From: Actinomycetales bacterium | Lineage (GTDB): Bacteria > Actinomycetota > Actinomycetes > Nanopelagicales > Nanopelagicaceae | Assembly: GCA_007280395.1 (NCBI GenBank) | Contig: QYQH01000070.1 | Span: 1 to 38,977, forward strand | DNA length: 38,977 nt | Direction of reading: 5' to 3' | Shown: positions 3,970 through 34,819 of the stretch, in pieces | Position numbering within the stretch: the stretch's first letter is position 1 | Layout: every line of letters starts with the position of its first letter | Translations under genes and position numbers: made by a program | Notes under the pieces: generated by a model | Seen by the model: only the letters and a program-made list of their open reading frames with translations | The model's database searches: none | What the model was told of the DNA's origin: nothing

Positions 3970-4917
3970 TTAATCTAGCGTCACATAGTTTGGACTAGCG
4001 TAATACCCATCACGCATCTTCATGCGCTGCATGAGCAGGTCATTTAGAAGCGCACTTGCACCAATTCGAAATAGCGATGGATCAAGCCACTCCGGGCCAG
4101 CGATTTCATTTACCAAAACCAGTTGTTTCATTGCATCTTTAGTATTTCGAATTCCACCTGCGGGCTTAACTCCAATTCGGACCCCGGCCATCTTATAAAA
4201 ATCCCTAACGGCTTCGAGCATTACATAAACCACAGGAGCGGTAGCGGCAGGCGAAATTTTTCCAGTACTAGTCTTTATAAAATCGCCACCTGCAAGCATT
4301 GCAAGATAACAGGCTTTGCGAACGTTATCTAAAGTAACAAGTTCTCCGGTCTCCAGAATAACTTTAAGGCGAACGTCGTTGCCACAAATTTCTTTTATGG
4401 TCCTTATCTCATCAAAAACTAAACCGAGATTTCCCGCTAAGAAAGCTCCGCGATCAATAACCATATCTATCTCACTCGCACCATTTGCGATTGCATCTTT
4501 AGTATCTTGAATCTTGACTTCCATGCTTGCCCGACCAGAAGGGAATGCAGTTGTAACGGCAGCAACAGGAATGTGTTTTCCGCCGCCATTATCAAGTGCA
4601 TCTCTCGCGATTTTCACCATATCGTTATAGACACAAATTGCACCAACAGATGGAATTGATAAATCAGTTGGATCGGGATAAACACCCTTTGCGCAGAGCG
4701 CCTTAACTTTTCCTGGAGTATCTGCACCTTCAAGAGTGGTTAGGTCCACCATCCGAATTGCCAGATCAATCGCCCAATTTTTACTAGAAGTCTTAATGCT
4801 TCGGGTTGCCAACATCTCAACGCGCGCACTTGCTCCCACGGCATCAACAGGAGCTAAGGTCTTGAGGAATTTCTTAAGCGAAGCTTCGCTGTTATCTGCG
4901 AGTAGCGTTGAATTCAC
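3970..4917 (-). CDS. deoC: Deoxyribose-phosphate aldolase
   Basis: Class I aldolase cleaving 2-deoxyribose-5-phosphate to acetaldehyde and glyceraldehyde-3-phosphate, the last step of deoxynucleoside catabolism. Of 315 residues, the Schiff-base Lys215 sits in GGDFIKTSTGK, the second active-site Lys251 in GVKPAGGIR and the catalytic Asp151 in EIDMVID. The first (N-terminal) 40 residues are an extension relative to the E. coli enzyme, as is common in long-form DeoC. The start is GTG (4915-4917), supported by a TAGATT element six bases upstream, which suggests a leaderless transcript. It is the first gene of an operon with two ALDH-family genes downstream. Confidence 0.95.
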   Translation of the reverse strand: MNSTLLADNSEASLKKFLKTLAPVDAVGASARVEMLATRSIKTSSKNWAIDLAIRMVDLTTLEGADTPGKVKALCAKGVYPDPTDLSIPSVGAICVYNDMVKIARDALDNGGGKHIPVAAVTTAFPSGRASMEVKIQDTKDAIANGASEIDMVIDRGAFLAGNLGLVFDEIRTIKEICGNDVRLKVILETGELVTLDNVRKACYLAMLAGGDFIKTSTGKISPAATAPVVYVMLEAVRDFYKMAGVRIGVKPAGGIRNTKDAMKQLVLVNEIAGPEWLDPSLFRIGASALLNDLLMQRMKMRDGYYASPNYVTLD

Positions 4918-4929
4918 GCCACAAATCTA
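4918..4929 (-). promoter_or_regulatory. Candidate leaderless -10 promoter of deoC
   Basis: On the minus strand TAGATT (4924-4929) is followed by six bases and then the GTG of deoC. This matches the actinobacterial -10 pattern TANNNT at the distance that puts the transcript start on the start codon. No Shine-Dalgarno sequence is present. Confidence 0.6.
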
Positions 4930-4958
4930 GCACTTTAGAGTTAATCCTCAATAAGACA

Positions 4959-6674
4959 TTAGTCTTCTATGAGACATAAGGTCGCACCACTAGCAACGGT
5001 TTGACCAACGCTTACTTGCAATTTAGAAATGGTTCCGGCCTTATGAGCAATCAGTGGCTGCTCCATCTTCATCGCTTCTAGTACAACTATTAAATCGCCA
5101 ACTTCAACTCGATCGCCATTTCCCTTAACAACTTTAACAACCGTCCCCTGCATAGGGCTCTCCAAAGAATCTCCGGCAAGAGCAGTAATTGCATTGCTCC
5201 TTACGCGGTGTCGTTTTTGAATTGGTTCAGGGGTATGGAGAAGAACTTCAAAGCGATGGCCATCAACTTCCGCAATAATTTTCTGGGATGCAGCCTTTGA
5301 ATCTGCCGTTCCCTGCTTAAATGAAAATGGTGGAATCTCATTCTTAAATTCGTTTTCAATGTAACTGGTATATACCTTGAAATCTTTAGTGAAATTTGGA
5401 TCTTCAACAATTGCGCGATGAAATGGCAGCGCAGTCGCTAGGCCGCCGATATGAAATTCACGAAGTGCGCGACGAGCACGATCAATCGCTTCCGCGCGGG
5501 TTGAGCCAGTGACAATTAACTTTGCAAGTAGCGAATCAAAGTGTGAACCAATTGTGTGCCCATGATCAAAGCCAGCATCGATTCGAACACCAGGTCCTGA
5601 TGGAACTTCCCATTTAGTAATCGTTCCTAGTGAAGGTAGGAAACCCTTTCCTGGATCTTCGCCATTAATTCTAAATTCAATACTGTGTCCACGAATTGTT
5701 GGGTCGACCGGATTAATAGTTTGACCATCCGCAATTCTAAATTGTTCACGAACGAGATCTAGGCCAGTCACTTCTTCACTTACTGGGTGTTCTACTTGCA
5801 ACCTGGTGTTAACTTCCAAGAACGAGATAGTGCCATCAGAACCAATTAAGAATTCACAGGTACCGGCGCCTACATAGCCGGCTTCTTTCATTATCGCCTT
5901 ACTTGAGGCATAAAGTTGATCGATCTGGGCTTGAGTCAAGAATGGAGCAGGAGCCTCTTCAACTAACTTCTGGTGGCGACGTTGTAGCGAACAGTCGCGA
6001 GTACTTACAACAATTGCATTTCCTTTAGCATCAATTAAAACTTGAGTTTCAACATGTCGTGGCTTATCTAGATAGCGTTCGACGAAACATTCACCGCGGC
6101 CAAAGCCGGTAATAGCTTCACGTACGGCTGATGCAAAAAGTTCTGGAATTTCCTCGATTGTGTGTGCAACTTTTAAGCCGCGGCCACCACCTCCGTGCGC
6201 TGCCTTGATTGCAACCGGCAGGCCATGTTCTTTTGCAAATGCAACAATCTCTTCAGGCGTATCAACTGGGTCAGTTGTTCCAGCTACAAGTGGAGCGCCA
6301 ACTTTCGCAGCAATCTTTCGGGCGGAAACTTTATCGCCAAGCAATCTAATTGCGCTTGGTGGGGGTCCGATCCAAATTAAACCGGCTGCAATAACCCGAT
6401 CAGCAAAATCTGCATTCTCTGAAAGGAATCCATATCCAGGATGGACCGCATCTGCTCCAGATTTTTTTGCAATCTCAATAATTTTATTCTGGTCTAAATA
6501 AGTTTCGGCTGCAGACAATCCTTGTAGGGCGTAGGCCTCATCAGCGGTCGCAACATGAAGTGATGTTCGATCTTCATCAGAATAGATAGCGATTGATTTA
6601 ATGCCATGGTCACGAGCGGCGCGGGCCACACGTACCGCAATTTCACCTCGGTTCGCAATTAGAACGGCTTTCAT
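4959..6674 (-). CDS. accA3: Acyl-CoA carboxylase alpha chain (biotin carboxylase + biotin carrier)
   Basis: A 571-residue fusion of biotin carboxylase and biotin carboxyl carrier domains. It carboxylates its own biotin with ATP and bicarbonate, for transfer by the beta subunit onto an acyl-CoA. The BC domain starts [19 protein letters not shown]. The ATP-grasp glycine loop is [10 protein letters not shown], and [14 protein letters not shown] is in the active site. The biotinylated lysine is Lys536 in EAMKMEQ, 35 residues from the C-terminus. It is the last gene of accD-accE-maf-accA3, with its ATG overlapping the maf stop (ATGA). Its biotin ligase is encoded divergently by birA. By synteny it corresponds to mycobacterial AccA3, which serves several beta subunits. 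Confidence 0.95.
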
Positions 6675-16995: not shown

Positions 16996-18513
16996 GTGAA
17001 AATAGTGAAACTAGTTCCAAGAATTGATTGTCATACACAATCTGAGATTGATTACTCGACTGTTGAAGCCATAGCCATTCCATTCGCTAAACCAGAAGAA
17101 GCTAGCGCTTTAGAAATCGGTAATCCCAAATTAGCTTCGCAAATTTCCAAGTACTTCGGATTAGATCTCACAGGCTTGCTTTCACAGTGGCCGGATGCAA
17201 CAGGCAAGGCCGGTGAATTAATTGAAATCCCGATTGAAAGTTCAAGCGGCAAATTATCCAGAATCTATTTAATCGGTGTCGGCGCTAATGGACCCGATGA
17301 CTTACGCAAGGCTGGTGCAGCTCTTGCCCGAAAAGTTAAAAATAGCGGAGCTCAAGTTCTAGATGTACTTGTTACAAATAAGCAAAGCGCACGAGTTCAT
17401 GCAGTAGCACTAGTTTTGGCAAGTTATTCCTGGAGTGAAAAAAGCGCACCAGCTAAAGAGTTAAAGGCTGCGCACTTCATAATTGTTGGAAATTTTGCAA
17501 AAGAAATAGTCAGCGCAAATTCTCTGGCTTTGGGAGTCTGGCGCGCAAGAGATCTAATTCATACGCCTTCAAATATTAAGAGCCCATTATGGATTGCAGA
17601 TCAAGCAAAGACATTAGTGGCACGAGCAAAATCACCTGAATTAAAGATTGAGATTAAGAGTGGTGCCGCGCTTGCAAAATTTGGTGGCTTACTAGCAGTC
17701 GGAAACTCAGCTCCAAAACCTGGGCCGCGATTTATTCAAGTTTCATACGCACCTAAGGGATCAAAGAGTTGGCCTCATGTAGTCCTAGTAGGTAAAGGAA
17801 TTACTTTTGACACTGGTGGCGTTTCGCTCAAACGACCATATGAATCGATGGTTGGAATGAAGAGCGATATGGCAGGTGCGGCTGCAGTTCTTGCCACAGT
17901 AATTGCAATTGCTGAAATGGGCGCGGATGCCCCAAAGGTTCGCATTACCTCGCTATTAATGTGTGCCGAAAATGCACTTTCATCTACATCTCAACGTCCT
18001 TCAGATGTAATTACGCATTTTGGTGGAACTACAGTTGAAGTTATCAATACTGATGCCGAAGGTCGTTTAGTTCTTGCTGATGGTCTGGCATATGCAGATG
18101 CTGAATTAGATCCAGATTACCTAATCGATGTTGCAACACTTACAGGTTCTGCAACTCTTGGCCTTGGTCGCCAATATGCAGCAATGTATACCCGTGATGT
18201 TTCACTCGCTCAAGATCTTTATGACTCTGGTCAAAACGTTGGTGAACGTGTTTGGCATATGCCACTAATTGATGATTACAAAGTTGCACTCGCAAGTGAA
18301 GTTGCAGATTTTAATCACACCGCTGAGAAACCCGATTTCAACGGGGGTTCAATTACGGCCGCTCTCTTCTTAGAACACTTTGCCGGAGATCGCAGATGGG
18401 TGCACTTAGATATTGCTGGTCCAGCTCGCTCCGAGAGTGATTCTGGTGAAAATCCAAAAGGCGGTACTGGCTTCGGGGTTAGATTGCTTACAGAGTGGTT
18501 GACTTCGCTATGA
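16996..18513 (+). CDS. pepA: Leucyl aminopeptidase (M17)
   Basis: Cytosolic dinuclear-metal aminopeptidase removing N-terminal residues from peptides. The 505-residue protein has a variable N-terminal macro-like domain and an M17 catalytic domain. Metal ligands Lys267 and Asp272 are in VGKGITFDTGG, and the signature NTDAEGRL starts at residue 351. GMKSDMAGAAAV and the C-terminal GGSITAALFLEHF complete the set. The start is GTG 16996. No clear Shine-Dalgarno or TANNNT site precedes it, so an alternative GTG at 17005 is possible. Its stop overlaps the ATG of the methyltransferase (ATGA). Confidence 0.94.
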   Translation: MKIVKLVPRIDCHTQSEIDYSTVEAIAIPFAKPEEASALEIGNPKLASQISKYFGLDLTGLLSQWPDATGKAGELIEIPIESSSGKLSRIYLIGVGANGPDDLRKAGAALARKVKNSGAQVLDVLVTNKQSARVHAVALVLASYSWSEKSAPAKELKAAHFIIVGNFAKEIVSANSLALGVWRARDLIHTPSNIKSPLWIADQAKTLVARAKSPELKIEIKSGAALAKFGGLLAVGNSAPKPGPRFIQVSYAPKGSKSWPHVVLVGKGITFDTGGVSLKRPYESMVGMKSDMAGAAAVLATVIAIAEMGADAPKVRITSLLMCAENALSSTSQRPSDVITHFGGTTVEVINTDAEGRLVLADGLAYADAELDPDYLIDVATLTGSATLGLGRQYAAMYTRDVSLAQDLYDSGQNVGERVWHMPLIDDYKVALASEVADFNHTAEKPDFNGGSITAALFLEHFAGDRRWVHLDIAGPARSESDSGENPKGGTGFGVRLLTEWLTSL

Positions 18514-19166
18514 CCTTTGATAGGACCGTTGATAAGACATCAAACAACCGTGGCGATATGTCAGCTTTTGCTGAAAATTTTCCGCATGAAGATTTCTTTA
18601 TGCAACAAGCCCGTAAGAATGGCGCCGAAGTTGGTGCACCTGATCCAACAGTCGGAGTCGGTGGATTAATTAATTTTGTTGTCGGCTTAATCTCTGCGAA
18701 ATCTATTGTAGAAATTGGAACTGGGTCTGGGGTTAGTGGACTCTGGATTTTTAACGGAGCGCCAAAAGAAGCAACTTTTACCTCGATTGATTCCGAACGC
18801 GAACATTCGGCAAGTGCAAAAGAGATCTTGGAAGAAGCTGGAATCTCTGCCCAAAGATTCAGATTAATTACCGGAAACATTATAGAAGTCGTTGGAAAGT
18901 TGGCCGATGCAAATTATGACTTGATGATTGTGAGGTCACCAGAAGATATGGTCGATGTGGTTCAAGAGAGTCACAGATTATTAAAGACCGGCGGGGTGTT
19001 AATTATTGATAATGCACTTGACGGTGGCAAGGTCGCAGACCCAACGCAACGAGATTTTGAAACCATCGCCCGGCGCGATTCGGTAAAAGCAATTCGTGAA
19101 GATTCCAGATGGAGTGCAACGGTACTTCCAATTGGCGGTGGCGCCCTTGTCGCCCGTAAAATTTAA
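18510..19166 (+). CDS. O-methyltransferase, class I SAM-dependent
   Basis: A 218-residue COMT/CCoAOMT-like methyltransferase. The SAM-binding loop is VEIGTGSGVSGLW, the acidic residue after strand 2 is in SIDSERE, and metal-site-like IIDNALDGGKV follows. The substrate is unknown. I chose ATG 18510, which overlaps the pepA stop, over an in-frame GTG 15 bases upstream inside pepA. In mycobacteria the orthologous position is next to sigE-rseA-htrA, but here htrA follows directly with a 2-base gap. Confidence 0.85.
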   Translation: MTFDRTVDKTSNNRGDMSAFAENFPHEDFFMQQARKNGAEVGAPDPTVGVGGLINFVVGLISAKSIVEIGTGSGVSGLWIFNGAPKEATFTSIDSEREHSASAKEILEEAGISAQRFRLITGNIIEVVGKLADANYDLMIVRSPEDMVDVVQESHRLLKTGGVLIIDNALDGGKVADPTQRDFETIARRDSVKAIREDSRWSATVLPIGGGALVARKI

Positions 19167-19168
19167 CC
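19157..19168 (+). promoter_or_regulatory. Candidate leaderless -10 promoter of htrA
   Basis: TAAAAT (19157-19162), six bases, then ATG 19169. The element sits inside the last codons of the methyltransferase gene, so htrA may have its own transcript despite the tight spacing. Confidence 0.5.
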
Positions 19169-20305
19169 ATGACTAAAACTCCAGATACCCCTTGGTGGAT
19201 CTCTGAACATCCCGTAGTCACTGCCCAGGATGTTAAGAAGCGAAATACCAGAACTGTTGGTTTCGGAGTTGCAATCACAATGGCGCTTATCGCCGGAGTC
19301 GTGGGGAGTATTGCCGGACGCACTACAGCAAATATTGATTCAAAAACTAATTTAGTAACTACAAAGAGCGTTATCGAACGCAAGCCTGATTCAATTGCTG
19401 GAATTGCCGGAAGGGTTTCGCCTTCAGTAGTTTCAATTGATGTACGGAATGGAAATTCTGGTGGAACTGGATCCGGATTCTTTTTAGATAGTTCGGGATA
19501 CATTCTTACTAATAACCATGTGATTTCAAGTGCGGCCACTAATAGCGCAACAATTACAGTGATGTTAGCCAATGGTAAGAATTATGATGCGAAGTTAATT
19601 GGGCGCGATATTGCTTATGATCTTGCCGTTATAAAAATCGCGGTTACAGATGCACCCGCACTTCAGCTCGGCGACAGTGATGAAGTTCAGGTAGGAGATG
19701 GGGTTATCGCAATTGGCTCACCACTTGGCCTTACAGGAACGGTAACTTCCGGAATCATAAGTGCAAAAAATCGCCCAGTTACATCTGGTGGTGGAACTAG
19801 TGAAAGTTCATTCATAAATGCAATTCAAACCGATGCTGCAATAAATCCAGGCAACTCTGGTGGGCCACTGGTAGATCTCTCCGGCGCAGTTATCGGAATT
19901 AATTCTGCAATCGCCACAACTAGTTCTGGATTTGGTGGTCAAGGCGGTTCAATCGGATTAGGTTTCGCGATTCCGATAAATCAAGCGCGAAAGACTGCAG
20001 ATCAACTGATTAAGAACGGTAGTTCAACCTATCCAATTATGGGAGTGTCACTTGATACGCGATACCCCGGGAACGGTGCAAAAATTTCTACTGAACCAGG
20101 ATCGATCACGCCAGGTGGACCAGCAGAAAGCGCAGGAATAAAACCTGGCGATGTGATTATTGAAATTGATGGAAAAGCTGTTGGAACATCTAGTGAAGCT
20201 ATCGTAAGCGTACGCTCACATAGTGTTGGAGATTCAATAAAAGTTAAGTTTCAACGTGATGGAGTCACAAAAGAGGTATCGCTAAAACTCATTGCCGCGA
20301 AGTAA
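19169..20305 (+). CDS. htrA: HtrA/DegP-type membrane-anchored serine protease
   Basis: Extracytoplasmic protease/chaperone of 378 aa. A short cytoplasmic N-terminus is followed by one membrane helix (about residues 29-50), then a trypsin-like domain with His117 (LTNNHVI), Asp151 (YDLAVIKI) and Ser230 (NPGNSGGPL). A C-terminal PDZ domain contains GGPAESAGIKPGDVIIEIDG. All catalytic residues are present. In mycobacteria HtrA degrades or processes envelope proteins and sits beside sigE and the anti-sigma gene rseA, neither of which is here. Followed by tatB. Confidence 0.95.
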   Translation: MTKTPDTPWWISEHPVVTAQDVKKRNTRTVGFGVAITMALIAGVVGSIAGRTTANIDSKTNLVTTKSVIERKPDSIAGIAGRVSPSVVSIDVRNGNSGGTGSGFFLDSSGYILTNNHVISSAATNSATITVMLANGKNYDAKLIGRDIAYDLAVIKIAVTDAPALQLGDSDEVQVGDGVIAIGSPLGLTGTVTSGIISAKNRPVTSGGGTSESSFINAIQTDAAINPGNSGGPLVDLSGAVIGINSAIATTSSGFGGQGGSIGLGFAIPINQARKTADQLIKNGSSTYPIMGVSLDTRYPGNGAKISTEPGSITPGGPAESAGIKPGDVIIEIDGKAVGTSSEAIVSVRSHSVGDSIKVKFQRDGVTKEVSLKLIAAK

Positions 20306-20317
20306 CCAAGTTAGATA

Positions 20318-20329
20318 TAGAATTCGAAA
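20318..20329 (+). promoter_or_regulatory. Candidate leaderless -10 promoter of tatB
   Basis: TAGAAT (20318-20323), six bases (TCGAAA), then ATG 20330, within the 24-base gap after htrA. No Shine-Dalgarno site. Confidence 0.6.
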
Positions 20330-20635
20330 ATGTTCGGAATTGGTGGCGGAGAAATAGTTGGCCTACTTCTGTTGGCTCTGGTGCTTATTGGACCAGACAA
20401 GCTCCCACAATTTTCTACAGATCTTGTAAAGCTAATTAGAAAAATCCGAGATATTGCACAAGGGGCAACAAATGACCTGCGCGATAACTTAGGGGCAGGA
20501 TACGAGGATTTAAAGGTTACTGATCTACATCCAAAAAAATTCATCACAAAGCATATTAACGAAGCGTTAGCCGAGCCGACTGCACAAATCCAAGAATTAA
20601 AAAAATCGGCGAAAATAGATCCGGATCTCTTATGA
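20330..20635 (+). CDS. tatB: Sec-independent protein translocase TatB
   Basis: A 101-residue membrane protein of twin-arginine translocation. One N-terminal helix (FGIGGGEIVGLLLLALVLI) is followed by the GPDKLPQF hinge, an amphipathic helix and a polar charged tail. The length and FGIGGGE start fit TatB better than TatA. tatA and tatC are not in the window. The position after htrA matches other actinobacteria. The stop overlaps mrp (ATGA). Confidence 0.88.
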   Translation: MFGIGGGEIVGLLLLALVLIGPDKLPQFSTDLVKLIRKIRDIAQGATNDLRDNLGAGYEDLKVTDLHPKKFITKHINEALAEPTAQIQELKKSAKIDPDLL

Positions 20636-21756
20636 CTAGTGAAGTAATTGCAAAAATTAATCAAGCGCTACAAGGAGTTTCAGATCCAGAACTGCATCGC
20701 CCGCTACCAGAACTTGGAATGGTTAAGTCAGTCGAATTCATTAATGGGGTCGCTGCAATAACTATTCTGCTTACAATTTCGGGCTGTCCAATGCGCGATC
20801 GCTTGCAGAAAGATATATCTGATTCCTTAGAACCAATAGCAGAAGTTAAATCTCTAGATCTAACTTTTGGAGTTATGAATCAAGAGCAGAGAGATAACGT
20901 AAAGAAGTTATTAAATGGTGGCAAAGAGCGTTTTATTCCATTTGCCCAACCAGGCTCTTTAACAAGAGTTATTGGTATTGCATCAGGTAAAGGTGGCGTC
21001 GGAAAATCTTCAGTGACTGTAAACATAGCCGTAGCGGCTGCACAGAAAGGATTGAAGGTAGGTATTTTAGATGCGGATATTTATGGTCATTCAATCCCAA
21101 GGCTTATGGGGATTGTTGGAAAACGACCAACCGCAATCGACCAAACTTTTATTCCGGTCGAAGCCTTTGGGGTAAAAGTCGTTTCAATGGAGATGTTTAA
21201 GCCGGAGCGTTCTGATGCTGTTGCTTTTCGCGGCCCGATGCTGCACAAAGTTTTAGAGCAATTATTAAGTGATGCATATTGGGGCGATCTTGATCTTCTT
21301 CTTCTGGATTTACCACCAGGAACTGGTGATATCGCAATTTCTCTGGGCCAACTCTTACCAGCATCAGAAATAGTAGTTGTTACAACGCCACAGATTGCCG
21401 CTGCTGAAGTTTCTGAACGAGCAGGGCGAATTGCTCACCAATTAAAACAACACATCATTGGCGTAATTGAAAACATGTCCGATACATCTTGTCACAAATG
21501 TGGTGAGCCAATTGCAATCTTTGGAACTGGTGGCGGCTTAGAAACTGCTAAACATTTATCAACTTTGGTTGGGACAGATGTAGCGCTAATTGGGCAGATC
21601 CCGTTTACTGCTGCCCTTCGAGAGGGTGGCGATATTGGTCAGCCAATTGTTATAAGCGATCCAACATGTCCAGCAAGTGAATCTTTTGCAGCAATAGTCG
21701 AAAAAATAACGTTACGCCCTAAGTCTTTAGTCGGGGTTAGGCTCTCGGTTTCCTAA
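20632..21756 (+). CDS. mrp: Mrp/ApbC-type P-loop ATPase, iron-sulfur carrier
   Basis: The 374 residues comprise an N-terminal MIP18/DUF59 domain (about 1-85, with GCPMRD) and a MinD-like ATPase. The deviant Walker A is GKGGVGKSS (119-127) and Walker B lies in LLLLDLPPGTGD. The conserved Cys287-x2-Cys290 (SCHKC) binds a bridging Fe-S cluster in the dimer. It delivers Fe-S clusters to apoproteins in the cytosol. Translationally coupled to tatB. Confidence 0.94.
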   Translation: MTSEVIAKINQALQGVSDPELHRPLPELGMVKSVEFINGVAAITILLTISGCPMRDRLQKDISDSLEPIAEVKSLDLTFGVMNQEQRDNVKKLLNGGKERFIPFAQPGSLTRVIGIASGKGGVGKSSVTVNIAVAAAQKGLKVGILDADIYGHSIPRLMGIVGKRPTAIDQTFIPVEAFGVKVVSMEMFKPERSDAVAFRGPMLHKVLEQLLSDAYWGDLDLLLLDLPPGTGDIAISLGQLLPASEIVVVTTPQIAAAEVSERAGRIAHQLKQHIIGVIENMSDTSCHKCGEPIAIFGTGGGLETAKHLSTLVGTDVALIGQIPFTAALREGGDIGQPIVISDPTCPASESFAAIVEKITLRPKSLVGVRLSVS

Positions 21757-21774
21757 CTTTCTAGAGACATCGCC

Positions 21775-21786
21775 TAAGATTGGGCT
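21775..21786 (+). promoter_or_regulatory. Candidate leaderless -10 promoter of the MgtE-like/NRAMP operon
   Basis: TAAGAT (21775-21780), six bases (TGGGCT), then ATG 21787. It heads a five-gene overlapping operon. No Shine-Dalgarno site. Confidence 0.6.
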
Positions 21787-23124
21787 ATGAAAAAGCCACC
21801 AGTAAAGAGCATCAATACGGTGGCCAAACGACTTGTAGGCCGCAGTGAATTGGTCCTACAGCGGAAAAATATTCGAGAATCTTTAGTTTCAGTTGCAGGA
21901 CTTATTGGTCGCCCAGTTAGATATCAAGGCGGAAATGAAATTGGTCGTCTTGTAGATGTCGTTGTAAGACATGGCGAAGATTCTTATCCGCCAGTTTCAG
22001 GATTGATCGTAAAAGTTGGTCAGAGTAAATCCTTTATTGATGGCGCAAGAATTGCAAAGTTAACTCAGAGCGAAATTCAACTCTCATCAGCGAGAGTAGA
22101 TCTAACTGAATTTGTTAGGCGAGAAGGCGAATCCCTTCTGGATGCTGATGTTTTAGATCACCAAATTGTTGATGTAAACGGCCTTCGAGTAGTTCGCTCC
22201 TCAGATCTTTACTTAGCACCTCTTGATCGCGAGATTCGAGTTGTTGGAGTAGATATTTCATTTAAAGCATTTATCCGCAGAATTTTTCCTGGTGCTCTTG
22301 GGCGCGGGCCAATTCCAGAACATGTAATTGACTGGGCTAACGTTGCCTCACTTGCTCATGGAACAGGAGTTGTTCGTTCAACTGAATCTCGGGCGGCACT
22401 AGGTCAACTTCGCCCTGCAGACTTAGCAGATTTAATTGAAGATTTAGCTGGCCGGGAACGAAGCGCACTTATTGAAATGCTTGACCCAGATCTCGCTGCA
22501 GATGCTCTGGAGGAGATGGAAGACGATGAACTACAAGGTTTGTTGCGCGGATTATCGGCGCAACGTTCTGCAGAATTAATTTCTCGAATGGAACCTGATG
22601 AAGGTGCTGAAGTTTTGCGTGATCTGAATGACGATCACCGAGAGAGCATTTTCATGGAGATGGATTCTTCAGTTGCAAAACAACTTAGAAAACTAGTTGA
22701 GTTCGATGAGACTTTAGCTGGTGGAATTATGACTTCACATATGTTGATTACTCACGAATCAGATACCGTAGCATCTGCACTTCAATTATTGGTTGAGCAT
22801 AAAAGTCGTGATATTTCAGATGGCGTAGTAGTTGTTGATGCAAAGGGTAAGTTGCTGGATCACATTCAAATTATCGAATTAATTGCTGCTAAACCAGGGG
22901 CCACACTTTCAACTTTAATCGGCCCCCCATATCCAACTTCGGTTAAAATAAATACCAGACTTGATGCAGTTATTGATGAGTTTGCAAATAACCGTGGCTC
23001 ATCAATCATTGTCGTTGATGAGAAGAATAAACCAGTGGGCAGAATCCTTGCTGATGACCTAGTAGACGCTCTAGCTTCAGTTTCTGGTTCACCTGGTTTC
23101 GCGCAAGGAAGTGGTGTGCTCTAA
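21787..23124 (+). CDS. Soluble MgtE-N/CBS protein with PRC-barrel domains
   Basis: The 445-residue cytoplasmic protein has PRC-barrel-like beta segments (about 35-170), then an MgtE N-terminal helical superhelix (about 208-308, LRPADLADLIEDLAGRERS) and a CBS pair (about 315-435). It has no membrane helices, so it holds the sensor half of a magnesium channel without the pore. In MgtE these domains bind Mg2+ and close the channel. The next gene starts inside its stop (TAATG) and encodes a transporter, so it probably gates or senses for that protein. The pairing is seen directly and the regulatory role is inferred. Confidence 0.88.
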   Translation: MKKPPVKSINTVAKRLVGRSELVLQRKNIRESLVSVAGLIGRPVRYQGGNEIGRLVDVVVRHGEDSYPPVSGLIVKVGQSKSFIDGARIAKLTQSEIQLSSARVDLTEFVRREGESLLDADVLDHQIVDVNGLRVVRSSDLYLAPLDREIRVVGVDISFKAFIRRIFPGALGRGPIPEHVIDWANVASLAHGTGVVRSTESRAALGQLRPADLADLIEDLAGRERSALIEMLDPDLAADALEEMEDDELQGLLRGLSAQRSAELISRMEPDEGAEVLRDLNDDHRESIFMEMDSSVAKQLRKLVEFDETLAGGIMTSHMLITHESDTVASALQLLVEHKSRDISDGVVVVDAKGKLLDHIQIIELIAAKPGATLSTLIGPPYPTSVKINTRLDAVIDEFANNRGSSIIVVDEKNKPVGRILADDLVDALASVSGSPGFAQGSGVL

Positions 23125-24368
23125 TGGCAACCAAACAGAGTATTTCACCAAAGAAGATTCGAATTGCTGCGCTCCTTGCAGTTATGGGGCCAGGAGTTAT
23201 TGCTGGGCTTTCAGATGATGACCCAGCAGGTATCACTACTTATTCCGTGCTTGGTGCGAAATATGGTTATCAACTTCTCTGGGTTCTTGTTGCCTCTACA
23301 GCCGCGCTTATTGTTTTCCAAGATCTTGGTGCACGAATTGGTGTTGTAACCCGGCAGGGGATGATTGGCTTAATTCGTCAAAAATATGGCGCAAGATCAG
23401 GAACACTCAGCGCTGGCGTACTAATCCTGGCAAATATTGGAACTATGACTGCAGAATTTGCAGGCATCGCCGCAGCAGGACAATTATTTGGTCTCAGCAA
23501 ATATTTGACCGTTCCGGTAGCCGGCATAGCTGTCTCTTTCCTAGTACTACGAAATTCATTTGCAAAAGTTGAGAAAGTTTTTTTTCTTATTTCTGGAGTA
23601 TTTATCGTCTATGTAATTGCTGGATTTATGGCACATCCGGATTGGGGAAGTGCGCTACGCGGTGTTGTTGTACCGAGTATGCCATTTACTCAAGATGCGG
23701 TCTTCATCGCTACTGCAACTTTTGGAACGACGCTGGCGCCTTGGGGCCTGGCATTCATTCAGTCGTATGCTGTAGATAAGCGGTTAACTCGCGATGATTT
23801 AAAACTGCTTCGAGTAGATGTCTGGACTGGATCTCTTCTAACTGGAGTTATCGGCTTCTTTGTAATTGTTACTTGCGCCGCAACGCTTAATAAAAATGGC
23901 ATTCAAATAAATGACGCGGCAGACGCTGCAAAAGCTCTTGAACCACTTGCGGGAACGCTTGCTAAGGAACTTTTTGCAATTGGTTTAATCGGAGCAGCGC
24001 TTCTAGCGGCCTCAATTTTGCCACTCTCAACTGCTTATTCTGTAAGTGATTTAACGGGCCGACCAGCGGCGCTTGATGACTCACCACGTGAAGCACCACT
24101 TTTCTATGCGACATTTGGCGTGATCACAATGCTCAGTGCGATTTTGATTTTAATCCCAGGTGCGCCTCTAATTAAGATTTTGGTTTTAACTCAGATCTTA
24201 AATGCAGTTCTCCTGCTGCCTTTACTTGTATATATGTATGGCATCTCTAAAGATGAGAGGCTGATGGGTGAATTTGTTGCAACCCGTACCATGAAAGTTA
24301 TTTATTCAATTATTATCACTGTAGTTGCTGTCGCGATTGCTTGCATGCTCTGGTTTACGATTAATTAA
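23124..24368 (+). CDS. NRAMP-related divalent metal transporter, probably Mg2+
   Basis: A 414-residue integral membrane protein with about eleven helices in the NRAMP fold. The helix-1 motif reads DDDPAG (31-36) instead of canonical DPGN. The helix-6 motif reads GTTLAPWG (201-208) instead of ATVMPH, so the methionine that selects transition metals is lost. NRAMP-related magnesium transporters (NRMT) described in Clostridium and Eggerthella carry comparable changes. Together with its translational coupling to the MgtE-like sensor, magnesium uptake is more likely than Mn2+ or Fe2+ uptake. Confidence 0.85.
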   Translation: MATKQSISPKKIRIAALLAVMGPGVIAGLSDDDPAGITTYSVLGAKYGYQLLWVLVASTAALIVFQDLGARIGVVTRQGMIGLIRQKYGARSGTLSAGVLILANIGTMTAEFAGIAAAGQLFGLSKYLTVPVAGIAVSFLVLRNSFAKVEKVFFLISGVFIVYVIAGFMAHPDWGSALRGVVVPSMPFTQDAVFIATATFGTTLAPWGLAFIQSYAVDKRLTRDDLKLLRVDVWTGSLLTGVIGFFVIVTCAATLNKNGIQINDAADAAKALEPLAGTLAKELFAIGLIGAALLAASILPLSTAYSVSDLTGRPAALDDSPREAPLFYATFGVITMLSAILILIPGAPLIKILVLTQILNAVLLLPLLVYMYGISKDERLMGEFVATRTMKVIYSIIITVVAVAIACMLWFTIN

Positions 24369-25267
24369 TGAGTAAACACGACCACACCGCAATTCCTGCG
24401 CCTAAAGATCTTGGCCTATTAACTCTTGGGGTAATTGGAGTCGGTACGTCAGGTCCAATAATTGCCGCAAGTATTATGCCCGTGCCTTCACTTATTTTTT
24501 GGCGCAATCTTGGTGGGGCCCTGATGATGTTGCCCTTTGCGCTCAAGAATGGTGAATGGAAGTCACGTGAAGAGCGGCGTGCAATTCTTTTATCCAGTTG
24601 CGCTGGAGTTTTTCTAGCAGCGCACTTCATATGCTTTTTTCTAGCAATGCGATTCACAAGTGTTGCGGCAGGTACCGCACTTGCCGCTCTGCAGCCAATT
24701 TTTACCGCAATTTATTTTAAAACACGTGGTGGCGTAATTCCAAGACGTGCCTGGGGTGGAATGTTTATCGCCTTTCTCTCCGTGCTTTTAATTACCGGAA
24801 TTGATTTTCAAATAAGTTTGCGCAATTTTGCAGGGGATATGCTCGCACTTTTAGGTGCGGCCCTAGCGGCTGGTTACATGTTAATTGGGTCTAAAGCCCA
24901 GCAGAAACTTTCAACATCTACTTATACGAGCGCTTGCTACCTAACATGCGCTATTACAGCGTTATTAATCGCGCTTGCTACCGGAAGTCAATTTTTACAT
25001 TTTGAAGCACGTCAATGGTGGCTAGTCATTGCACTAATTCTTGGTGCTCAATTTCTTGGACACACAATGTTCAATATGGCACTTCGCCGAGTTTCTCCAG
25101 TATTTGTTGCGCTAATTGTTTTCTTTGAAGTTCCCGTTAGCGCGCTAATCGCTTACTTTTGGATCGATCAAGTTCCTCCTGCGGGAATCATCCCAGGAAT
25201 CATTGGTTTATTGGTTGGCTGCGGTATCTTCGTATCAAGAGCGAAGGTTGTGCCAATAAATGATTGA
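24368..25267 (+). CDS. DMT superfamily (EamA) transporter
   Basis: A 299-residue membrane protein with two EamA repeats and about ten helices. LAALQPIFTAIYF ends the first repeat, and RVSPVFVALIVFFEVPVSALIAYF ends the second. These are small-molecule exporters or permeases of unpredictable substrate. The start lies inside the stop of the NRAMP-related gene (TAATG), so it belongs to the same operon. Confidence 0.85.
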   Translation: MSKHDHTAIPAPKDLGLLTLGVIGVGTSGPIIAASIMPVPSLIFWRNLGGALMMLPFALKNGEWKSREERRAILLSSCAGVFLAAHFICFFLAMRFTSVAAGTALAALQPIFTAIYFKTRGGVIPRRAWGGMFIAFLSVLLITGIDFQISLRNFAGDMLALLGAALAAGYMLIGSKAQQKLSTSTYTSACYLTCAITALLIALATGSQFLHFEARQWWLVIALILGAQFLGHTMFNMALRRVSPVFVALIVFFEVPVSALIAYFWIDQVPPAGIIPGIIGLLVGCGIFVSRAKVVPIND

Positions 25268-26105
25268 TCTACATACTCATTCATCCGCTAGTGACGGCAC
25301 TGATACACCAGGTGAATTAATTAATAAGGCTCATGCTCGCGGGATTACTGTTCTTGGACTGATGGACCACGACACGGTTGCTGGTTGGGACGAAGCTATT
25401 GCTTATCTTCGCCCGGGACTTTCGTTAGTACTTGGTTCCGAAATTTCAGCACAAACTCCTGATGGAATAAGCGTTCATATGCTTGGAGCGCTCTTTGATC
25501 GAAATAATAAGCCACTTATGGGGGCGCTGGCCAAGACCCGGGAAAGTCGTTATGGACGAATGGAAAAAATTGTTGGCCGGTTAAATGAAGTCGGAATTGA
25601 AATCACGATTGAAGAAGTTTTAGCCCAGCTTTCTGATGGTGCAACACTTGGCAGACCACATCTTGCAGATGCTTTAATTGTAAAGAAGATTGTAAAGAGC
25701 CGTGAAGAAGCATTCGAGCTTTACTTAAGTAACAGTTCAAAGTTCTATGTTTCTCATTATGCACCGACGCCCGAAGAAGCCATTCGGTTGATTAAGGAGG
25801 CGGGGGGAGTAGCCGTTATTGCTCATCCACTTGCCTCATTGCGCGGGCGAATAGTTTCGATAGATAGTTTCAAATCGATGGTCGATGCGGGAATGGATGG
25901 AATTGAAGTTTCACATCGAGACCAAACACCAGAAGCGCAAGAATTACTCGCCGCGGTTGTTAAACAATATGGCATCATTGCTACCGGTTCCAGTGATTAT
26001 CATGGCAATGGCAAAATGAATGAGCTAGCTGAATTCACTACAACATCGGAAGCCTTCGCTGAATTAGAGGCAAGGGCTAATGCACGAAGGGTGGTTCGGA
26101 AATGA
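25260..26105 (+). CDS. PHP-domain phosphoesterase (RNase AM/YciV-like)
   Basis: A 281-residue metal-dependent phosphoesterase with the PHP motifs in order: DLHTHSSASDGT, GLMDHDTV, GRPHLADAL, VIAHPLA and GSSDYHG. Relatives hydrolyse 3',5'-bisphosphonucleotides or short RNA 5' ends. It overlaps the EamA gene by 8 bases and marC by 4. Confidence 0.88.
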   Translation: MIDLHTHSSASDGTDTPGELINKAHARGITVLGLMDHDTVAGWDEAIAYLRPGLSLVLGSEISAQTPDGISVHMLGALFDRNNKPLMGALAKTRESRYGRMEKIVGRLNEVGIEITIEEVLAQLSDGATLGRPHLADALIVKKIVKSREEAFELYLSNSSKFYVSHYAPTPEEAIRLIKEAGGVAVIAHPLASLRGRIVSIDSFKSMVDAGMDGIEVSHRDQTPEAQELLAAVVKQYGIIATGSSDYHGNGKMNELAEFTTTSEAFAELEARANARRVVRK

Positions 26106-26722
26106 AAGACATACTTCTAATCTCAACCGCCACATTTGGAATTCAAGCATTCGTAACCCTCTTCGTAATTATGGATCCACCAGGTGCAACCCCAATTTTT
26201 CTAGCCCTAGTGAAAGATCAACCAAATCGGAGACGAATTCGGATGGCATGGCAGGGCGCTGGCGTCTCACTTATCGTAATTGTTACCTTCGCAATCTTCG
26301 GAAAATTTATTCTTGATTACCTGCACATTTCAGTAGAAGCACTACAAGGTGCAGGTGGCTTGCTGTTGTTACTGATTTCTCTCGAGTTATTAACCGGAAA
26401 AGATAGTGGTGGCGATAAGACTAAAGATGTAAATGTGGCGCTTGTTCCGCTTGGTACTCCGCTCTTAGCAGGACCTGGTGCAATTGTTACAACGATTGTT
26501 TTCGTGCAACATGCTTATACCGTTGAGATGAAACTCGCCTTAGCCGCGGCAATAGTCGCCGTTCACTTGGCAATTGGCTTAACGCTTATGTTCTCAACGA
26601 AGGTTGTTGGCTTGATTAAGGAATCTGGTGTTACTTTAATCGCAAGAATTGCCGGCTTACTTTTAGCAGCAATCGCAGTAGAAATGATTGTTCAGTCGAT
26701 TAAAGGATTCTTCGAACTTTAA
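26102..26722 (+). CDS. MarC-family integral membrane protein
   Basis: A 206-residue protein with six likely helices. VIMDPPGATPIFLAL and PLGTPLLAGPGAIVTTIVF are the duplicated conserved loops of the MarC/UPF0056 family, whose function is not established. It is the last gene of the overlapping five-gene run, and its TAA shares the sequence TTAA with the stop of the convergent DUF3107 gene. Confidence 0.88.
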   Translation: MKDILLISTATFGIQAFVTLFVIMDPPGATPIFLALVKDQPNRRRIRMAWQGAGVSLIVIVTFAIFGKFILDYLHISVEALQGAGGLLLLLISLELLTGKDSGGDKTKDVNVALVPLGTPLLAGPGAIVTTIVFVQHAYTVEMKLALAAAIVAVHLAIGLTLMFSTKVVGLIKESGVTLIARIAGLLLAAIAVEMIVQSIKGFFEL

Positions 26723-33229: not shown

Positions 33230-34417
33230 ATGGCTACCGAGCTTGATCTTGCAATAACTAAAGCCTGCGAGGTTATTTCAGATACTTCGACTCTAGTTCG
33301 CGTAGTTCTATCGGGGCGCAGGCGAAATATGACCGTTCCATTTGAGCGTATCGATCTTCGCCCAGTATTAATTAAAGATGAAATTGCCTTACAGATTTCT
33401 CAGAGTGATGGGCGTGTTACGACCGTTAAGAATGTTGCGCCTAAAGATTTCCAAGCACGGAGCTATTTAGAGCTGGGTTACGCAAATATTTTAGTTGAAC
33501 ACACGAGCGGTGCGCTTTCAATTCGTATTACCAAGAAAGGTGAGGCACAGGTTCATGAAGAGAAGGGCACACGTGAACAGAACCTCGATCATGATCGCAA
33601 AAAAGCTCGGCTACTCGATTCTTCAGATCCATTCTTAATTGAAGTTGGTATTTCAGATTCCGATGGGCGAGTTAAGCCATCGCGTTCAGATAAATATATT
33701 CAAGTTGAAGAATTCTTACGCTTGCTCGTCCCAACGCTTAATTCAGCTATTGAAGCCAAACAAATCAGTAAACCAACGCTAGTGAACCCACTTGTAATCG
33801 CAGATCTTGGCTGTGGCAGCGCATATTTAACTTTTGCGGTTCATCAATACCTTAGGAGTATTGATATGCCGGTACACGTGATTGGTATTGATATCAGACC
33901 AGAATCATTGAAGCGAAATACTGAAATCGCTAAGAAGCTAGGGATTGCTGAGACTATTGAATTTAAGGCAGAGGCGATTGATCAAACCTCACTAACATCT
34001 TGCGATATTGCAATCGCACTGCATGCCTGTGATACCGCAACAGATGATGCAATTGCTTGGGCAGTAAATGGTGGTGCGAAATTGCTGTTGATTGCACCAT
34101 GTTGCCAACATGATCTTCAAACTCAGATGAGCCAAGTGCCGGAACCTTGGAACCTTCTAACAAAGCACGGATTGATGAAGGAACGTCTCGGTGATTTAAT
34201 GACAGATGCACTGCGAGCCCAAATTTTAAAGCTTGTTGGTTATCGCACTGAAGTTATTGAATTTATTGGGGGAGAGCACACACCAAGAAATATTATGATT
34301 CGCGCAGTTTTAACTAGCGCTAAGGCAGAAGCCAAAGATATTGAAAATTACAAGAAGATGTTAGAAGAATGGAAAATTGATCCAGCCTTAGCCAGCAGAC
34401 TTAACATAATCAAGTAG
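33230..34417 (+). CDS. SAM-dependent methyltransferase (Methyltransf_32/TRMT13-like)
   Basis: The 395 residues comprise an N-terminal beta-rich region (RVVLSGRRRNMTV) and a class I methyltransferase domain. The SAM loop is IADLGCGSAYLTF (about 190-202), IGIDIRPESLKRN carries the ribose-binding Asp, then come ALHACDTATDDAI and the distinctive IAPCCQHDL. The HACD and PCCQ motifs are typical of the family related to tRNA methyltransferase TRM13 and GSTCD. The substrate is unknown, RNA being possible. It starts immediately after the dapC stop and overlaps the convergent CBS gene by 30 bases. Confidence 0.8.
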   Translation: MATELDLAITKACEVISDTSTLVRVVLSGRRRNMTVPFERIDLRPVLIKDEIALQISQSDGRVTTVKNVAPKDFQARSYLELGYANILVEHTSGALSIRITKKGEAQVHEEKGTREQNLDHDRKKARLLDSSDPFLIEVGISDSDGRVKPSRSDKYIQVEEFLRLLVPTLNSAIEAKQISKPTLVNPLVIADLGCGSAYLTFAVHQYLRSIDMPVHVIGIDIRPESLKRNTEIAKKLGIAETIEFKAEAIDQTSLTSCDIAIALHACDTATDDAIAWAVNGGAKLLLIAPCCQHDLQTQMSQVPEPWNLLTKHGLMKERLGDLMTDALRAQILKLVGYRTEVIEFIGGEHTPRNIMIRAVLTSAKAEAKDIENYKKMLEEWKIDPALASRLNIIK

Positions 34418-34819
34418 GGCAATTCGTTCAAGGTCCATTTCAGAAACATAGGATTTAACTACATCTCCTATTGAAACAATCGAGATTAGCTCCCCAGTTT
34501 CATCGACAACCGGAATATGGCGAATACGTTTTTCAGTCATTAAGGCCATTAACTGTGCAACTGTTGCATTTTTCTTACAAGTCATAACATTTACAGTCAT
34601 TATGTCTCGAACATGTATTTTTTCAATTTCATGCATATGAATAGGAAGAGCTTGGACGATATCCCGTTCTGAAACTATGCCATTTATTCTCTTGCCATCA
34701 GATGAAACGACCAAAGCTCCAATTTTAAAAGAAGCAAGTGCCTGGCTTAACTCCTTTATAGTTGCGTCAGGCTTTATTGTTTGAACTTGCTTTCCGGGTA
34801 ATAAACTTGAAATCTGCAT
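34388..34819 (-). CDS. CBS-pair domain protein
   Basis: The 143 residues form two tandem CBS motifs (about 10-60 and 72-130) and nothing else. GALVVSSDGKRINGIVSERDIV and IRHIPVVDETGELISIVSIGDVV mark them. Such proteins bind adenine nucleotides as energy or metabolite sensors. The partner is unknown. A Shine-Dalgarno AGGGG precedes the ATG. The start region faces the AroE-like gene across a 17-base inverted repeat. Confidence 0.88.
   Translation of the reverse strand: MQISSLLPGKQVQTIKPDATIKELSQALASFKIGALVVSSDGKRINGIVSERDIVQALPIHMHEIEKIHVRDIMTVNVMTCKKNATVAQLMALMTEKRIRHIPVVDETGELISIVSIGDVVKSYVSEMDLERIALLDYVKSAG

Follow-up and report, generated by a model that had tools for sequence, protein, structure and literature searches.

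A pore-less MgtE-like protein encoded beside an NRMT-type NRAMP-related transporter in Nanopelagicaceae and in many other bacterial lineages

INTRODUCTION

NRAMP-related Mg2+ transporters, termed NrmT or NRMT, were described as Mg2+ importers by Shin et al. in 2014, in a study which also noted that most nrmT genes adjoin a gene for the N-terminal cytoplasmic domain of MgtE and which proposed feedback regulation (PMC4072509). In that work, the NrmT of A. capsulatum, whose gene lies next to an MgtE-like one, gave full rescue of a Mn2+-uptake mutant but weak Mg2+ rescue and behaved as a Mn2+ importer, Clostridium NrmTs were functional without an MgtE-like partner, and the only co-expression test, done with the partial MgtE of A. 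capsulatum, brought no better Mg2+ rescue (PMC4072509). Ramanadane et al. (2022) subsequently found that EleNRMT, the transporter of Eggerthella lenta, carries both Mg2+ and Mn2+ without protons, with an affinity that is tighter for Mn2+ (~100 uM) than for Mg2+ (~400 uM); the protein, studied without any partner, is rather unstable in detergent on its own (PMC8806188). The same paper defines NRMTs by DxxG in TM1 and TxxA/T in TM6, instead of the DxxN and A/CxxM of classical NRAMPs. Within the literature searched, NrmT together with MgtE was found in these two papers only.

The present analysis concerns such a pair in an Actinomycetales bacterium of the family Nanopelagicaceae (assembly GCA_007280395.1, contig QYQH01000070.1), within a stretch of 38,977 nucleotides that is called the window hereafter. 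A first-pass annotation of the window had proposed that an NRAMP-related pore is regulated by a detached MgtE domain, the gating module having been 'swapped in' from another family. Since both the pairing and the feedback idea were published in 2014 (PMC4072509), that regulatory idea is a rediscovery, and its implied local novelty falls away. The pair itself is real, conserved, widespread and of a known kind, and its feedback mechanism is treated here as a hypothesis. New points are the breadth of the pairing, which extends over many phyla, and its correspondence with the NRMT signature, along with the findings set out below on the Mg2+ importers of the genus, on the sensor residues, on the PRC-like part and on the pseudo-channel partners.

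GENE ORDER AND GENOMIC SETTING

The two genes of the pair are as follows.

21787..23124, + strand, MgtE-like partner gene, 445 aa (open reading frame list, Pfam, AlphaFold, Foldseek)
23124..24368, + strand, NRMT-type NRAMP-related transporter gene, 414 aa (PF01566, match to 7qia, DxxG/TxxA)

They overlap by one base in the sequence TAATG, such that the final A of the partner stop codon TAA is also the A of the transporter ATG; the second gene does begin in the stop codon of the first, as had been noted. The pair lies within nine tightly packed same-strand genes at 18495-26722, in the order methyltransferase-htrA-tatB-mrp-partner-NRMT-eamA-PHP-marC, and other junctions in this run overlap as well (at 24368, 25260-25267 and 26102-26105). 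Because neighbouring genes overlap too, the overlap in the window is by itself weak evidence of the translational coupling that the first-pass annotation had assumed. Among actinobacterial relatives, however, a possible NRMT start overlaps the partner stop by 1 or 4 nt in 18 of the 18 examined, so the coupling is conserved, if not distinctive in the window genome; this uniformity, together with the recurrence of the pairing across phyla, excludes chance. Compared with the operons of PMC4072509, the window pair shares the same two genes, the usual order and the proposed cytoplasmic feedback role; it differs in lacking a detectable M-box Mg2+ riboswitch, in its setting within an actinobacterial htrA-tatB-mrp run and in the start codon that overlaps the partner stop. 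No M-box or other Rfam element was found in 20600-23300 at E <= 1.

The same genome holds a second full pair (locus L016, positions 4058-6636, contig C20), whose partner and transporter are 72% and 79% identical to those of the window. This pair is flanked by an amino-acid-permease-like gene on one side and by murT/gatD-like genes on the other, and it has a GTG start and a 4-nt overlap. That it is a mis-binned orthologous region of another strain is ruled out because its flanks differ from those of the window pair, the origin of the contig itself being unproven. Elsewhere in the window, a small CBS-pair protein of 143 aa is encoded at 34388-34819 on the - strand.

THE TRANSPORTER

The protein encoded at 23124-24368 matches PF01566 (E 4e-81). 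Its best match in the PDB is EleNRMT (7qia), over the full length, with 312.7 bits and E 3.7e-92, and the next-best, another NRAMP, reaches 102.9 bits; hence in sequence it is closer to a characterized NRMT than to classical NRAMPs. Both halves of the NRMT signature, DPAG and TTLA, are present.

23214..23231, + strand, TM1 motif DDDPAG (DxxG of NRMTs)
23727..23744, + strand, TM6 motif TTLAPW (TxxA of NRMTs), in which Ala and Trp replace the classical Met and His

With DPAG and APW where DPGN and MPH would be expected, as had been read from the sequence at the outset, identity as a classical MntH/NRAMP is rejected. The counterparts of D131, H232, R352 and R353 of DraNramp, which we take to be proton-path residues, are M, W, A and G in the alignment. 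EleNRMT, the closest solved relative, shares the DxxG/TxxA site class and likewise misses the proton-path residues, and differs in having DAGG in TM1 where the window protein has DPAG (7qia, PMC8806188). By sequence, therefore, the window transporter is an NRMT, that is, an NRAMP-related Mg2+ transporter, for which transport itself is predicted.

THE PARTNER PROTEIN

The partner (21787-23124) is composed of a PRC-like part (~33-190), MgtE_N (~201-305) and a CBS pair (~306-432). Pfam recognizes MgtE_N at residues 208-308 (E 5e-21) along with two CBS domains, and the MgtE pore domain, PF01769, is absent from the protein, from its own genome and from 40 relatives. Without a pore, the partner is rejected as an MgtE channel. 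An AlphaFold model built from 57 sequences (pLDDT 84, pTM 0.54) has mostly strands at ~43-156, followed by the helical MgtE_N and the CBS pair, and its ten best PDB matches by Foldseek are all MgtE, the closest being crystal structures of the cytosolic domain, with a TM-score by target of ~0.8. The fold of the MgtE cytosolic sensor, MgtE_N plus CBS pair, is thus borne out, as is the lack of a pore. The suggested PRC-barrel-like additions fared less evenly: the N-terminal part is mostly beta in the model and 52 of 57 homologues match PF05239 (PRC-barrel), but the window partner itself has neither a PF05239 match nor any other Pfam match before residue 200.

When the metal sites of TtMgtE (PMC5882242) are mapped onto the partner by alignment, and conservation is counted over 57 partners, the following residues correspond.

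22501..22503, + strand, D239 = TtMgtE E59 (Mg7); D/E in 47/57
22597..22611, + strand, D271 to E275 = TtMgtE D91 (Mg4) and D95 (Mg6); D in 50/57 and D/E in 57/57
23056..23067, + strand, D424 and D427 = TtMgtE D247 (Mg4) and D250 (Mg5); D in 49/57 and D/E in 37/57

Acidic residues of Mg4, Mg6 and Mg7 are therefore present (D239, D271, E275, D424), and Mg5 is half kept, D427 being there and the counterpart of TtMgtE D226 being R403. In comparison with the cytosolic region of the MgtE channel (2yvy, 2zy9, 8gpv), the partner shares the MgtE_N superhelix, the CBS pair and the Mg4/Mg6/Mg7 acidic residues, and adds the N-terminal PRC-like domain. It lacks, besides the pore, the plug helix with its Mg2/Mg3 residues (TtMgtE E258/D259), since the protein ends ~13 residues past the last CBS helix and none of these is acidic. 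The ATP contacts of MgtE, F227 and N203 (PMC5529423), have no counterparts in it, and those counterparts are lost in most of the 57 partners. The missing plug helix, by which MgtE shuts its pore, and the half-lost Mg5 mean that the MgtE mechanism is not transferable as it stands; judging from its residues, the partner appears to keep Mg2+ sensing in outline, with a signal route to the transporter that would have to differ from that of MgtE.

DISTRIBUTION OF THE PAIR

A sample of 296 genomes from the phylum yielded 100 NRMT-like loci. A gene of the partner family occurs in the fetched stretch for 78 of the 84 NRMTs with the signature and for 3 of the 16 without it (Fisher 2e-9, with related genomes not being independent). 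Transporters of the DPSG/TTISPY and AVIM types are unlinked and serve as a natural control. The pairing of a pore-less MgtE-type sensor with an NRAMP-related Mg2+ transporter, as first annotated, holds; the linkage is conserved when viewed from the transporter, and the Mg2+-site residues are kept. As to whether the two genes also occur apart in relatives, the picture is split: members of the partner family often occur in the absence of NRMT and then form a distinct clade of paralogues, but signature-bearing NRMTs rarely lack a linked partner (6 of 84). Three NRMTs with DPAG/TTLAPW (L036, L037 and L038) have no adjacent partner and none listed elsewhere in their genomes.

A scan of a genome collection gave 80 loci across phyla that include Actinomycetota, Nitrospirota, Bacillota, Acidobacteriota, Omnitrophota, Myxococcota and Bacteroidota. 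The partner lies upstream in 59 (within ~350 bases in 55), downstream in three and on the other strand in two; seven loci have no partner, and nine are too close to a contig edge. The pair also occurs in large genomes, and in isolation from the window's neighbour genes (L016, L022). The distance matrices of partner and NRMT correlate (Mantel r 0.78; cross-phylum r 0.50), which fits joint inheritance, reflects shared ancestry too and is no proof of contact. Among ~200 loci there was no natural partner-NRMT fusion; a long open frame of 921 aa in G056 proved to be a stop-free stretch holding two genes in different frames.

PARTNER VARIANTS AND THE DOCKING QUESTION

In a tree of the family, 20 unlinked copies are split from 141 linked partners, the window's included, by a branch with SH-aLRT 100, and copies of both kinds coexist in some genomes (G039, G346). 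Conservation that is confined to linked partners points to one stretch in particular.

22162..22281, + strand, candidate NRMT-docking stretch, partner residues 126-165 (Q126, D129, G132, R137, R164, R165)

Q126, D129, G132, R137 and R164 are kept in 88-96% of the 141 linked partners and in 0-20% of the 20 unlinked paralogues, and seven of ten linked-only conserved columns fall in the PRC-like part (Fisher 0.006). Moreover, the PRC-like part alone (~190-215 aa; profile positions 1 to ~164 of 396) adjoins NRMT in ~15 loci, i.e. ~15 of 78 linked neighbours. Because the linked-only residues cluster there and because of these PRC-only neighbours, the PRC-like part is the likely dock by which the partner is held onto NRMT. 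The PRC-only neighbours also imply that the gene for a sensor may lie apart from that for the transporter; longer homologues, with open frames of 600-670 aa, are found elsewhere in several genomes that have a PRC-only neighbour. PRC-only neighbours downstream of the transporter were seen at L079, L080, L082, L084-L088, L093, L094, L096, L097, L207 and L210. Two further loci (L017, L035) have a partner of ~300 aa, with the PRC-like part and MgtE_N and apparently without the CBS pair.

An artificially joined pair from Pelotalea, in which the stop was read as a glycine linker, folds with a pTM of 0.73, compared with 0.54 for the lone window partner; as a sign of direct contact, this modelled figure, which comes with neither an error map nor a control pair, is a hint only. 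Reading through the stop serves solely as a linker and carries no implication of recoding.

MG2+ IMPORT IN THE GENUS

The genus to which the window belongs is poor in recognizable Mg2+ importers. CorA is missing from 24 of its 25 genomes, none of the 25 has the MgtE pore, and MgtA scores above its cut-off in none of 16. ZnuA/MntC-type binding proteins are likewise found in 0/16 genus genomes, and a classical MntH was not found in the window's own genome. NRMT matches occur in every genus genome. Each genome also has one copy of a CNNM/CorC gene, a family usually tied to export or regulation. Over 41 relatives, CorA and NRMT are nearly mutually exclusive, CorA being present in 2 of 27 genomes with NRMT and in 13 of 14 without, although a p-value for this exclusion overstates independence because 25 of the 41 genomes are from one genus. 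With the other families missing, NRMT is the only recognizable Mg2+ importer of the genus, and possibly its Mn2+ importer too. We infer that Mg2+ is its main cargo.

M-boxes were found upstream of the pair in eight of 14 loci and upstream of a lone NRMT in one of 14, and in a further 17 actinobacterial loci upstream of the pair in two; overall, the 31 loci scanned gave ten for the pair and one for a lone NRMT. One locus from Pelosinus (L164, 3010-3499) has two tandem M-box aptamers upstream of the pair.

PROPOSED ROLE OF THE PARTNER

With the gene identities, the signature, the linkage, the Mg2+-site residues, the lack of other importer families in the genus and the linked-only conservation of the PRC-like part observed, the reading that we favour, and hold to be reasonably probable, is that the pair provides regulated Mg2+ import, with NRMT as the main Mg2+ entry route and the partner as a dedicated cytosolic Mg2+ sensor that slows import. 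NRMT would import Mg2+ without proton coupling, would very likely pass Mn2+ as well, and would be the main Mg2+ entry of a streamlined actinobacterium. The partner, presumed to be an MgtE-family derivative that senses cytosolic Mg2+ and is dedicated to NRMT, would be held on the cytosolic side of the transporter by its PRC-like domain. At high cytosolic Mg2+, MgtE_N and the CBS domains would bind Mg2+ through the conserved acidic residues and become compact as in MgtE, and the compact state would slow import. We infer that regulation takes the form of inhibition when Mg2+ is high. Several observations speak against this reading: the negative co-expression test, the Clostridium NrmTs that work alone and the Mn2+-importer behaviour of the A. 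capsulatum protein (PMC4072509), the characterization of EleNRMT with no partner (PMC8806188), the lack of fusions in ~200 loci, the six signature-bearing NRMTs that have no linked partner, the ~15 PRC-only neighbours, and the missing plug helix with the half-lost Mg5.

Three other explanations deserve consideration. NRMT might be mainly a Mn2+ importer, or a mixed Mg2+/Mn2+ importer, with a partner that senses Mn2+ or total divalent cation. This we consider unlikely, given that other Mg2+ importer families were not found in the genus while Mg2+ import is needed by every cell, that M-boxes lie upstream of the pair in other genomes, and that the partner's metal-site residues match the Mg2+ sites of MgtE. 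The idea nevertheless draws on the full Mn2+ and weak Mg2+ rescue by the A. capsulatum NrmT with its MgtE-like neighbour (PMC4072509), on the tighter affinity of EleNRMT for Mn2+ (PMC8806188), and on the lack of MntC-type binding proteins in 16 genus genomes and of a classical MntH in the window's own genome. A little less likely still, the partner might be an assembly, stability or localization factor for NRMT rather than a gate, with CBS and MgtE_N secondary. Such a role would suit the linked-only conservation in the PRC-like part, the existence of PRC-only neighbours, the loss of the ATP contacts and the plug helix, and the instability of EleNRMT alone in detergent (PMC8806188); yet NRMTs function without a partner in other hosts (PMC4072509, PMC8806188), and the Mg2+-site aspartates, which a scaffold would not need, are kept in linked and unlinked homologues alike (D at both D271 to E275 and D424/D427 in 20 of 20 unlinked paralogues). 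That the genes adjoin solely because a streamlined genome is tightly packed, and are functionally unrelated, is very improbable: the nine same-strand genes with several overlaps at 18495-26722 are what would be expected of it, but packing is already refuted as a general explanation, because the pairing recurs across numerous phyla, occurs in large genomes and is also found away from the window's neighbour genes (L016, L022).

If regulated import through a gating partner is correct, then one Mg2+-sensor architecture serves two unrelated pores, MgtE and the NRAMP fold. Gating would also account for the way in which importers uncoupled from the proton gradient escape Mg2+ overload, and would identify the principal path of Mg2+ into a genus of streamlined actinobacteria. 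The role of the MgtE fragment, a question from 2014, is now testable through the named docking and Mg2+-site residues, the PRC-only pairs and the pseudo-channel partners described below.

POSSIBLE ORIGIN OF THE PARTNER FAMILY

Of 82 actinobacterial full partners, 26 continue beyond the CBS pair into a membrane domain of ~200 aa, and for one of these (L059) the alignment with TtMgtE runs over the whole length (E 5e-49). Both the GGNTGNQ motif and D432, which binds Mg2+ in the pore, are lost from all 26 (e.g. L049, L059). On these sequence grounds, the 26 look like retired MgtE channels, pseudo-channels kept as partners. They resemble the window partner in lying next to NRMT and in their arrangement of PRC-like part, MgtE_N and CBS pair, and differ from it in retaining the MgtE-like membrane domain. 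The family may accordingly be read as an NRMT-specific PRC dock joined to a sensor that derives from MgtE and whose pore is either defunct or missing.

The unlinked MgtE-like protein of Actinomycetia shares its domains, its Mg2+-site residues and the mrp/tatB/htrA neighbourhood with the window partner, and differs in having no adjacent NRMT, in forming a separate clade and in lacking the PRC-part residues of linked partners. In Actinomycetia without NRMT, this unlinked homologue adjoins mrp, tatB and htrA, which is the window's own chromosomal address. The htrA-tatB-mrp site (window 18495-26722) thus holds the linked pair in the window lineage and the unlinked sensor in other Actinomycetia, an apparent replacement in place. 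A broader scenario, possible if on balance doubtful, is that the partners are retired MgtE channels which lost first the ion site and then the pore, and which now act as an exchangeable Mg2+ brake on an unrelated fold, and that the unlinked paralogue may do the same for CorA. As a hint of the latter, the unlinked MgtE-like gene lies <10 kb from corA, on the same strand, in seven of 16 Actinomycetia genomes (L235, L237, L238, L240, L243, L249, L250), so the protein might act on CorA.
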